Positions 23,737-45,793 of a stretch of DNA of 45,793 nt are shown here, piece by piece; positions within the stretch are counted from its first letter, which is position 1, and every line of letters begins with the position of its first letter. The notes under the pieces are model-generated. The model had not been told where the DNA came from. It worked only from the letters and a program-made list of their open reading frames with translations, and made no database searches. The position numbers and the translations under genes are program-made. This DNA is from Syntrophobacterales bacterium (GTDB lineage: Bacteria > Desulfobacterota > Syntrophia > Syntrophales > UBA2210), in assembly GCA_021163105.1 (NCBI GenBank), contig JAGGXJ010000017.1, forward strand, positions 1-45,793. Direction: 5' to 3'.

Positions 23737-24633
23737 TTAATCAAATGGAAGATACATTATGGAAAGGGGATCTGCGTACGTATCTGCCAGTCTTAATCCC
23801 CAGTGCAGGTGGGGCCCTGTAGATCTTCCCGTTGAACCCGTGTAACCAATAACTTCCCCCTTATCAACAAAGACGCCTTTCCGGACGATTGTCTTTGACA
23901 TATGGCAGTAGATGGAGAAAAGGCCGATACCATGGTTTATTATAACGGTATTCCCGGAGAAATAAAGATCCCCGGACAGAACAACTTTCCCTGAGTTCGA
24001 AGCCCTGATAGATGTTCCTTTCGGCGAACGTATATCTATTCCTCTGTGACGTGACATAAACCCGCGGTTAAATACCCTCCGCTCACCAAATGCCCCGCTT
24101 ATACTTCCACTCAACGGCATGATAAACCTGCCGTCACCCAGCCAACCAGGTGTCGATATGCTATATATATGGCCAAGAATTCCCTTCTCGTTTTTTATCC
24201 TTTCCATAGCCGCCGGAGCCAGACTGGTAAAACGCCCGGCAACTTTTATCTTTTTTGAAGGAAATGTTTTTCCGGATACAGCAAGTTTGAAGGGTATATC
24301 CTTTTTTACGCCACGGGAAGATTCAAGATGGATAACAGCGTTATATGTCTCAGGCTTCATATCAAGCCCGAGTGCTATCAAGACGAAATATTTCAGATTA
24401 TTTCTGTCCGAAATAAAAGTGTAATCTTTCCCGTCAAGAGACAATGTGGCAGAGACCGGCACAGGCGATTGCAGGTATATTTTTACAACCTCTCCCTGAC
24501 AGAGACTGCGATATTTCGAGCTTATCGTCACCTCTCCTTCATCTGTAGGACTGGTTACCAGAGCCGCGTTCAGGCATACAGGATACAAAAGTAACAACAA
24601 ACAGATAATAGGTAAACTTGCACTTGTTTTCAT
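23737..24633 (-). CDS. M23 (LytM-type) peptidoglycan endopeptidase, secreted
   Basis: 298 aa. A signal peptide covers residues ~1-23 (IICLLLLLYPVCLNA). The N-terminal domain (~30-130) is a beta-rich region that resembles those preceding M23 domains in proteobacterial proteins. The peptidase domain has all zinc and catalytic motifs: HRGIDIRS (His196, Asp200), YCHMSK (His244) and GPHLHWGL (His275, His277). It is expected to cut peptide cross-links in the periplasm or to act as a cell-wall remodelling factor. Convergent with purF (26 bp apart). It ends next to the hairpin-rich intergenic region. Confidence 0.93.
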   Translation of the reverse strand: MKTSASLPIICLLLLLYPVCLNAALVTSPTDEGEVTISSKYRSLCQGEVVKIYLQSPVPVSATLSLDGKDYTFISDRNNLKYFVLIALGLDMKPETYNAVIHLESSRGVKKDIPFKLAVSGKTFPSKKIKVAGRFTSLAPAAMERIKNEKGILGHIYSISTPGWLGDGRFIMPLSGSISGAFGERRVFNRGFMSRHRGIDIRSPKGTSIRASNSGKVVLSGDLYFSGNTVIINHGIGLFSIYCHMSKTIVRKGVFVDKGEVIGYTGSTGRSTGPHLHWGLRLADTYADPLSIMYLPFD

Positions 24634-24746
24634 TCGCAGGAGCTTACACCAGAAATGCGTAAATTTGAAGCTCCCCGTAATCCCGTATAAGCGGGATCTC
24701 CGCTTTTGCTACGACAAGTTGCGGAGAATCTCCGACTATTTAGTAA

Positions 24747-24795
24747 GTTAGAAATTATTTTCTGTGTTTTTCTGGCAGAAAATAATTTCGTTAAC
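24747..24795. repeat. Tandem hairpin repeat, copy 1
   Basis: Stem of 14 bp (24751-24764 with 24776-24789), extended by GTTA/TAAC (24747-24750 with 24792-24795) across a GT bulge; loop of 11 nt. Preceded by TTAGTAA, as is copy 2. Confidence 0.7.
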
Positions 24796-24805
24796 GCATT
24801 AGTAA

Positions 24806-24844
24806 GATAGAAGTTGTTTTCTCGTAGAAAACAACTTCGTTATC
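24806..24844. repeat. Tandem hairpin repeat, copy 2
   Basis: Stem of 13 bp (24810-24822 with 24826-24838), extended by GATA/TATC (24806-24809 with 24841-24844) across the same GT bulge; loop CGT. It differs from copy 1 at paired positions in both arms. Confidence 0.7.
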
Positions 24845-25171
24845 GCACTTATCCCCTTTAGTGGGACTTATCCCGTTTATCGGGGTTAAGGAAAATGTTT
24901 ATTCTTATTCGCTCGCTAACCCCGCCGCAAGCAGCGGGGAATGCGCTCGCTGTTCAGTTCAAAGAATGTGCGGGGTCTGCTTTTCCCATCCCAGGCTTAT
25001 GGAAAAACCGGCATCGTTCTTTACTCAAAAAACAGAGGAGCCTCCTTTACCCCGGTAACAAAAATATGGACATTTTCCAAAGCATCTATTAACATGTTTG
25101 AATCTTATGGTCAGTATCTATTCGTAGTTGAATTTAACAAAGAAAAACAACCGCATAGAGGGAAAATCGGG

Positions 25172-27655
25172 ATGAGTAAAAACAGATTTAAAAAAGTGCC
25201 TCCGGAAAAGTTAAGGGTAAAAATCGATCCGGATTTGCTGGGTTTTGAGAGTACGGCAGACTGTGAATATCACGGCAGAATCATAGGCCAGGACAGGGCA
25301 ATAAAAGCCCTTACCATGGGACTGGAAATAGACAGTCCCGGTTACAACATCTACGCGGCCGGCCTGTCCGGAACGGGAAAAGCATCAACCATAAAAAATC
25401 TTCTTGAACAACTCGACCTGAAAAAGAAGATTCCTGACGATATTTGTTATGTCAACAATTTTAGAGATCCTGATATGCCCGTGGTTATCATGCTCCCGGC
25501 TGGACTGGGTAAACAGTTCCGGGAGGACATGGATGATATGATCCTGTATCTGCAAAAGCAGATCCCACACCTCTTTGAAAGCGAGGATTTTAAAAAGAGA
25601 TCCGAGCATATTGTAAACAGCTACATGGATAAACAGAAAGAAATAGTAAAAACCTTCAGCGAGAAAATACAGAAAGAGAATTTCCAACTGGTTCAATTTC
25701 AGATAGGTCCTTACACAAAACAGGATGTCGTGCCTGTCTACGAGGGAAAACCGATTCAAATCGAACAACTGGAATCGCTCGTAGAACAGGATGAGTTTGA
25801 CAGGAAAAAATTCGAAAGGATAGGGGAAAAACTTAGCGAACTGAGGATTGAACTCGACTCAACCATGAAAGAAACAAGGAAGATTGAGAAGAAAATCAGG
25901 GAAGAGATAGATTCTCTCGAGTATAAGATGGGTCTTCCTGTGGTAAGTGAACATATATCGGATATCATTTTGAAATATGAAAAATACAGTGACAAAATTA
26001 AGGATTACCTGAAGAATATTCAGGAGAACATTCTGTCAAACCTGAAACTGTTTCAGGAAAAGGACGAAGAAAAACAGTCTGCGCCACTTCCTTTCCTGCC
26101 GAGTGGTACAACCGAGGAAAAGTTTACCGAGTACAAAATTAACGTTCTGGTTGATAACTCTCAGACAAAGGCAACTCCCGTCATAATCGAAAACACGCCC
26201 ACATACAGAAACTTGTTTGGTACCATAGAGAGAGAAGTTGATCGTTCCGGTTTCTGGAAAACCGATTTTACAAAGATAAAACCGGGCTCACTCTTGCGTG
26301 CCAACGGTGGATATATAGTTTTCAATGCCATTGAAGCCCTCACAGAATACGGCGTATGGAAATTTCTGAAGAGAACACTGGAAAACAGGCTGCTGACCAT
26401 GCAGCCTTACGACCCGTTAAACATAGCATCAACCGCGATAAAACCGGAGCCCATACCGATAGATGTCAAGGTTGTTATGCTGGGTGACAACTATATATAT
26501 CACCAGCTTTATAACCTGGAAGACAGTTTCAGCAAGATATTCAAGATAAAGGCACCCTTTGACACGGAGATGTCGAATAACAAAAAACACATATCGGACT
26601 ACGCATGCTTTATAAGGAAAATAGCGGAAGATGAGGGACTGTTACAATTTCACAAGAGCGCCGTGGCAGCAATGGTCGAATTCGGGATAAGACTAACAGG
26701 AAAACAGAAGAAGCTTTCCACCCGTTTCAGCGAGATAGCGGATCTTATCAGAGAGGCAAGCTACTGGGCCAGGAAGGACGGAAGCGCCGTTGTTATGGAA
26801 GCGCATGTTGATAAGGCCTGGGAAGAGAAGATTGAGAGGGTAAAACTTATTGAGGATAAGATACAGGAAATGATTGAAGAGGGCACTATCATGATCGACA
26901 CAGAGGGAGAGGTCACAGGTCAGGTAAACGGTCTGTCAGTTTACGACTTGGGTGACTATACCTTTGGAAAACCCTCAAGAATAACCGCCGAAACTTCAAT
27001 GGGGAGGGCGGGTGTAATCAACATTGAAAGAGAGGCAAAGCTCTCGGGAAAAACCCATGATAAGGGTGTTCTGATCCTGGAGGGTTTTTTCAGGGGAAGG
27101 TATACTCAGGACAAACCCCTGACTATGAGTGTTAGTATATGTTTTGAACAATCATATGGAGGAGTTGAAGGAGACAGCGCTTCATCATCGGAGGTATGTG
27201 CCATCCTGTCAAGCCTGTCGGGTCTGCCTGTCAGGCAGTGTCTTGCGATGACTGGCTCGGTTAATCAGAAAGGCGAAATACAGCCGGTGGGGGGTATTAA
27301 CCAGAAGGTTGAAGGGTTCTATGACGTATGCAGGGCAATGGAAAACGATTTGACAGGAGCCCAGGGTGTGATTATCCCGGCTTTGAACATTTCCGGTTTA
27401 ATGTTGAGAAAAGATGTGGTACAAGCCGTTTCGGAAGGTAAATTCCACATATATCCCGTCAGCACTATCGATGAATGCATAGCGATACTGACAGGTGTGG
27501 AGACGGGGGAAAGAGATAAAGAAGGAAACTATCCCCCAGAGACGGTAAACTTCCTTGTGAATGAAAAACTGGAATTCCTCGCGAAAGGGCTCAGGGATTT
27601 CGGAGAGGAAAAGTCTGAGACACAGGAACTGCCTGAAAATAATATAGAGAATTGA
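25172..27655 (+). CDS. Lon-like ATP-dependent protease (AAA_32/S16 type)
   Basis: 827 aa from ATG 25172. The N-terminal region has a Walker A loop GLSGTGKAST (Lys70). The middle part holds coiled coil (~160-290) and an AAA_32-type ATPase region. The C-terminal ~200 residues are a Lon S16 protease domain with the Ser-Lys dyad: Ser669 in EGDSASSSEVCAILSSLSG and Lys712 in GGINQKVEGF. The arrangement matches the LonB-like bacterial ATPase-proteases of ~800 aa rather than classical Lon, with no N-terminal LON substrate-binding domain. Frames extending upstream to 24941 run through the hairpin region and are rejected. The Shine-Dalgarno (GAGGG, ~12 bases upstream) is weak. Confidence 0.9.
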   Translation: MSKNRFKKVPPEKLRVKIDPDLLGFESTADCEYHGRIIGQDRAIKALTMGLEIDSPGYNIYAAGLSGTGKASTIKNLLEQLDLKKKIPDDICYVNNFRDPDMPVVIMLPAGLGKQFREDMDDMILYLQKQIPHLFESEDFKKRSEHIVNSYMDKQKEIVKTFSEKIQKENFQLVQFQIGPYTKQDVVPVYEGKPIQIEQLESLVEQDEFDRKKFERIGEKLSELRIELDSTMKETRKIEKKIREEIDSLEYKMGLPVVSEHISDIILKYEKYSDKIKDYLKNIQENILSNLKLFQEKDEEKQSAPLPFLPSGTTEEKFTEYKINVLVDNSQTKATPVIIENTPTYRNLFGTIEREVDRSGFWKTDFTKIKPGSLLRANGGYIVFNAIEALTEYGVWKFLKRTLENRLLTMQPYDPLNIASTAIKPEPIPIDVKVVMLGDNYIYHQLYNLEDSFSKIFKIKAPFDTEMSNNKKHISDYACFIRKIAEDEGLLQFHKSAVAAMVEFGIRLTGKQKKLSTRFSEIADLIREASYWARKDGSAVVMEAHVDKAWEEKIERVKLIEDKIQEMIEEGTIMIDTEGEVTGQVNGLSVYDLGDYTFGKPSRITAETSMGRAGVINIEREAKLSGKTHDKGVLILEGFFRGRYTQDKPLTMSVSICFEQSYGGVEGDSASSSEVCAILSSLSGLPVRQCLAMTGSVNQKGEIQPVGGINQKVEGFYDVCRAMENDLTGAQGVIIPALNISGLMLRKDVVQAVSEGKFHIYPVSTIDECIAILTGVETGERDKEGNYPPETVNFLVNEKLEFLAKGLRDFGEEKSETQELPENNIEN

Positions 27656-45422: not shown

Positions 45423-45538
<116 letters not shown>

Positions 45539-45603
45539 ACCTGTAAAAATTCGTAACAACCACATATATCTGATGTCCAAGCTGAATGTTATAAACAAAA
45601 ATA

Positions 45604-45793
<190 letters not shown>

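Follow-up and report, generated by a model that had tools for sequence, protein, structure and literature searches.

The window analysed here is the whole stretch of 45,793 nucleotides, numbered along the forward strand. Between the genes for an M23 peptidase (23737-24633, minus strand) and a LonB-like protease (25172-27655, plus strand) lies an intergenic copy of a longer repeat, E, with a hairpin-forming element inside it. The features below are named according to what we consider the best reading of the locus:

24665-24962, plus strand: host repeat E (TTGAAGCTCCCC...CAGTTCAA), a distinct repeat with many copies of its own, interrupted here by element 1
24740-24798, plus strand: element 1, 5′ part, with TTAG-TAAG-TTAG, the large GT-bulge hairpin and GTTAAC-GCA
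24747-24795, plus strand: large hairpin of element 1 (copy 1 of the earlier note)
24799-24866, plus strand: element 2, 68 nt, within element 1, reading TTAGTAAG-GATAG hairpin with a 3-nt loop-GTTATCGCA-CTTATCCCCTTTAGTGGGA
24806-24844, plus strand: large hairpin of element 2 (copy 2 of the earlier note)
24867-24885, plus strand: element 1, 3′ part, with CTTA and the small hairpin TCCCG-TTTAT-CGGGG
24886-24890, plus strand: native target flank TTAAG, YTARG-like, directly 3′ of element 1

An earlier note on this DNA had described two tandem hairpins at 24747-24795 and 24806-24844, with compensatory changes between them. Direct reading of the sequence confirmed both positions, the paired change of the stem from AAATTATTT/AAATAATTT to AAGTTGTTT/AAACAACTT, the outer change from GTTA/TAAC to GATA/TATC and the retention of the GT bulge in both hairpins. 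The folding z-score of the hairpins was -6.6 relative to dinucleotide shuffles, and 0 of 200 shuffles were equally stable. Both hairpins are thus real, but they are best read as nested rather than simply tandem, because a second, small hairpin, overlooked in the note (TCCCG-TTTAT-CGGGG, 24871-24885, with the related TCCCCTTTAGTGGGA at 24852-24866), is part of the same unit as the large one. TTAGTAAG starts at 24740 and again at 24799, and excision of 24799-24866 from 24740-24885 restores a canonical element 1, which indicates that element 2 was inserted into element 1 at GCA^CTTA. The best reading is that element 2 is nested inside element 1, itself within repeat E; a conceivable alternative is that element 2 has received a truncated first unit on its 5′ side. 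Single-hairpin copies occur in the genome of the window, and the single-hairpin copy C100 appears to be a chimera of both hairpin types at TTAGTAAG. Genome G005 holds a near-identical locus (98%). Tandem arrays (GGGGCTAGTAAG) were also seen, as would result if further copies entered at the 5′ side of a YTAG flank.

Repeat E itself, ≈160-300 bp long (TTGAAGCTCCCCGCAATCCCG...GCGGGGAATGCGCTCGCTGTTCAATTCAA), was found at 24665-24962 of the window and at L188-L192, L017 and L207. It has many copies in the genus of the window and in G007, frequently at contig ends.

Structure of the repeat unit

Alignment of 60 distinct copies defined a unit of ≈78 nt (range about 68-111) with the consensus TTAG-TAAG-wTAG-[≈15-bp stem, loop of 3 to ≈12 nt]-C-GT-TAwC-GCA-CTTA-TCC[YG TTTAT CR]GGG. 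In the large hairpin, both the GT bulge and a GCA bulge sit on the 3′ arm. CTTA is paired with the TAAG close to the 5′ end of the unit, which is closed at its 3′ side by the small hairpin. The element lacks terminal inverted repeats, with subterminal hairpins at both ends instead, and contains no gene. Pairing was retained in 95.8% of the cells of this alignment and 14 of 26 pairs had changed on both sides, a result matched by 0 of 500 shuffles. The covariation was repeated in a second set of 60 whole-genome copies, picked by covariance model rather than by the exact frame and partly overlapping the first set. In this second set, the single-stranded parts were conserved like the pairs: the GT bulge was kept in 58 and 57 of 60 copies, and the TTAG in 56-60 of 60. 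Selection for structure, as the earlier note had argued from the two copies, is therefore supported.

The note had left open whether the structure acts as RNA or as a DNA cruciform. In a cruciform, both strands are used equally, so that G-T and A-C oppositions would be equally frequent. On the written strand, we counted 100 G·T pairs and 23 A·C mismatches, and a weaker excess (32 versus 16) was seen in the second, partly overlapping set; all of these counts come from related copies, and hence from non-independent events. The excess favours folding of one strand, as DNA or RNA, over a cruciform. That part of the earlier proposal is thus disfavoured by the one-stranded tolerance of wobble pairs, and the mobile nature of the element, described below, had not been proposed. 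GC skew gave no clear replication-strand bias (58 versus 44).

Some copies depart from the consensus. The long-loop variants L304, L306, L325, L329, L334 and L335 (107-111 nt) carry in their loop an additional hairpin of the CCCC-GCAA-GGGG type, several with a GNRA-like tip. At the rpsR site (G003:C182), copy L229 lacks the large hairpin and keeps both ends (TTAGTAAGTTAGAAA...TTATCCCGTTTATCGGGG).

Distribution and insertion sites

The family is not confined to the two copies of the window. A search of its own genome with the frame recovered 10 copies, compared with 0 for a reversed control pattern, and the same search of a public genome collection found >114 loci in other named genomes. Nearly all of these loci lie in Desulfobacterota MAGs, assigned to Geobacter, Desulfuromonadales, Syntrophaceae, Smithella and one Desulfobulbaceae bacterium; a lone gammaproteobacterial match looks like chance. 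The covariance model gave 16 hits in the genome of the window. Of 155 genomes from the class, 53 had hits, in a patchy pattern, and among Geobacter-like MAGs a single genome contained as many as 106 copies. Most copies (85 of 99) lie outside predicted ORFs, and nested and tandem copies occur. Copies within a genome are more similar to each other than to those in other genomes (p = 0.0015), and in one genome a 78-nt copy recurs unchanged at a second locus, which shows that the family multiplies inside genomes.

Plasmids and phages gave no BLAST match to the element, and no full-frame match was found among viral contigs. A looser pattern recovered a 56-nt short version on a viral contig (L338:1738-1793, minus strand), between two genes of an apparent tailed-phage structural cluster. 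Phages may carry the element between hosts.

To identify empty sites, the joined flanks of copies were sought in relatives and then aligned. The rpsR site is filled in G000, G001 and G002 and empty in G004, G005, G006 and G012. Similarly, G005 lacks the insertion at C9, G004 and G006 lack it at C100, and filled L133 aligns with empty L140 at 95% identity; further filled/empty pairs are L130 with L160 and L127 with L122. Comparisons at C11 and at L052/G012 were concordant, but less clean. Repeat E is likewise present both filled and empty, in the same and in related genomes, with agreement to within one T, and its empty copies read CTGTTAAGG at the position of the target flank. All clean comparisons agree on the extent of the insertion, TTAGTAAG ... 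GGG(G).

Where the native flank is TTAA (C9, L133) or TTGG (G001, L130), the empty site corresponds to the right flank and not to the TTAG on the left. The TTAG is thus the element's own, and there is no target-site duplication; models with a duplication of 2-4 bp are ruled out by these sites. A weak consensus, YTARG, is common to the right flanks, and the left flanks share none; the element inserts precisely on the 5′ side of this short native sequence. At about 22 loci, the TAG of the element serves as the stop codon of the upstream gene. The exact filled and empty sites identify a mobile element rather than a fixed RNA gene, and we regard it as near-certain that the hairpin family is a nonautonomous mobile element.

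Mechanism of movement and related systems

Our main reading, to which we assign a probability of roughly 0.55, is that the window holds two nested copies of a ≈78-nt nonautonomous element that moves as a folded single strand by means of an HUH-type enzyme supplied in trans. The element inserts exactly 5′ of the short YTARG-like sequence, without duplication, and the enzyme is likely to be an HUH single-strand enzyme resembling the transposases of IS200/IS605 or REP sequences. CTTA, beside the small hairpin, would have two alternative pairing partners, the TAAG of the element and the TARG of the native flank, and would in this way guide the choice of target. In the DNA fold, CTTA pairs with the native TAAG adjoining the small hairpin, and this pairing, noticed post hoc, suggests that CTTA may act like a guide sequence 5′ of the hairpin foot.

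The combination of exact insertion, the lack of a duplication, hairpins at the ends and a short target is characteristic of HUH single-strand transposition (PMC7290912, PMC6006769) and leads us to favour an HUH-type route with moderate confidence. Against it stand the unlikeness of the two hairpins of the element and the lack of a clear replication-strand bias. Furthermore, the geometry of IS200/IS605, in which the target tetranucleotide lies 5′ and is repeated at the 3′ end of the element, fits only the opposite strand (target CTAR, element ending CTAA), in conflict with the G-T bias, which points to the written strand.

None of the 49 Y1 transposase loci that we checked bears the ends of the element, and no copy lies near any of them. 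Nor was a Y1 gene detected in the copy-rich genomes G007 (64 copies) and G027 (19 copies); these MAGs are 97% and 92% complete, respectively, so a Y1 gene may have been lost or left unassembled. The number of Y1 genes does not track copy number, since G163 has nine Y1 genes and one copy. TnpB was present in one of 18 genomes, at a locus without the ends of the element, and TnpB and IS91-type Y2 transposases were mostly absent, with no copies at their loci. Among genes near copies, where recurrence was assessed among unannotated ORFs, no recurrent transposase stood out. RAYT/Y1 proteins were consequently dropped as a resident driver, being unlinked to the copies, as were TnpB and the IS91-type Y2 transposases. 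On a further reading, which we consider rather unlikely, the gene-free ≈78-nt elements choose their site by CTTA-TAAG/TARG pairing and are moved by an enzyme outside the Y1, Y2 and TnpB groups, as would fit the apparent lack of these enzymes in copy-rich genomes.

We considered several other explanations. The element could be a REP/RAYT-type repeat, that is, a palindrome dispersed by TnpA-REP, a domesticated Y1 transposase, with loss of the gene for this enzyme in some lineages. It resembles REPs and REPINs (PMC6006769, PMC3116915) in being an intergenic, bulged palindrome with a conserved bulge, high copy number, tandem and nested clusters and one-strand folding, and RAYT-like Y1 proteins are present in many host genomes. 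However, the hairpin foot has no GTAG/GGAG tag and is preceded by GTAA/TAAG/TTAG instead, a second, small hairpin with CTTA is added, and the exact unit has clear empty sites. Together with the distance of all copies from the 49 Y1 loci, the Y1-less genomes G007 and G027 and the disparity in G163, these differences make a REP/RAYT origin a doubtful one. A DDE transposase acting on an ordinary MITE with TA/TTA target duplication would account for the TTA found at both junctions in many copies, but there are no terminal inverted repeats, and the TTGG and TTAA sites keep the left TTAG although their empty counterparts agree with the right flank alone; this reading is already disfavoured and is very improbable indeed.

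Integron attC sites are large imperfect hairpins with conserved extra-helical bases and a variable stem and loop. The element has all of these features, with the extra-helical bases on one arm and its shape conserved while the stem varies, and it could accordingly be an attC-like folded single-strand site that a tyrosine recombinase integrates at degenerate secondary sites, with N^TTAG as the one point of exchange. Exact insertion fits this scheme, as does the exchange region shared by the TTAG of the element and the native YTAG. On the other hand, the foot GTTA...TAAC is the reverse of the attC layout RYYYAAC...GTTRRRY, and there are no cassette genes, so that an attC-like site seems improbable. 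We hold a similarly low opinion of an element selected at the RNA level, either as a cis-acting RNA or as a reverse-transcribed, retrotransposed RNA. The one-strand excess of G-T (or G-U) pairs and the GNRA-like loops of the long variants would suit a folded transcript, but the element lies in either orientation relative to its neighbouring genes (both the same in 37 cases, both opposite in 24), the downstream genes are many and varied, and presence is patchy between orthologous sites.

The favoured route, single-strand transposition in trans, has a close parallel in PATEs (palindrome-associated transposable elements), miniature elements derived from IS200/IS605 (PMC7290912). These share with the element the absence of a gene, of terminal inverted repeats and of a target duplication, as well as hairpins at both ends, insertion beside a fixed short sequence and a probable mobilization in trans. 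In contrast to PATEs, the element is ≈78 nt long and has two unlike hairpins, with a stem of variable sequence and constant shape. Among the 49 Y1 loci and the one TnpB in 18 genomes, none had the ends expected of a parent tnpA or tnpB, and the geometry on the target side suits one strand where the wobble pairs favour the other.

The genome papers on G. bemidjiensis and G. metallireducens describe many multicopy intergenic palindromic sequences (PMC2996986, PMC2700814), and the element shares these three properties with the Geobacteraceae families. The main text of these papers contains no matching sequence and proposes no insertion mechanism; the element family may be among the multicopy Geobacter repeats, possibly catalogued in the supplements. 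The literature, searched by sequence and for Geobacter repeats at the level of main texts, yielded no description of the element. What began as a two-hairpin curiosity is thus an element family that has moved recently and is widespread among metal-reducing and syntrophic bacteria, many of them Geobacter- or Syntrophus-like. Because its ends are exact and natural before-and-after sites exist, the enzyme should be findable, and the genes shared by copy-rich genomes are candidates; if it is not a Y1 transposase, it would represent a new way to move DNA hairpins. The element also rewrites gene ends by supplying a stop codon, and places hairpins in operons, for example one after rpsR.

Within the window, no Rfam family other than rRNA scored above the gathering cut-off, and the remark of the earlier note that this was not a known element holds for Rfam as well as for the searchable literature. 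The rRNA genes lie at the end of the window (45423-45793, minus strand), which comprises a 5S rRNA gene and the 3′ end of a 23S rRNA gene.
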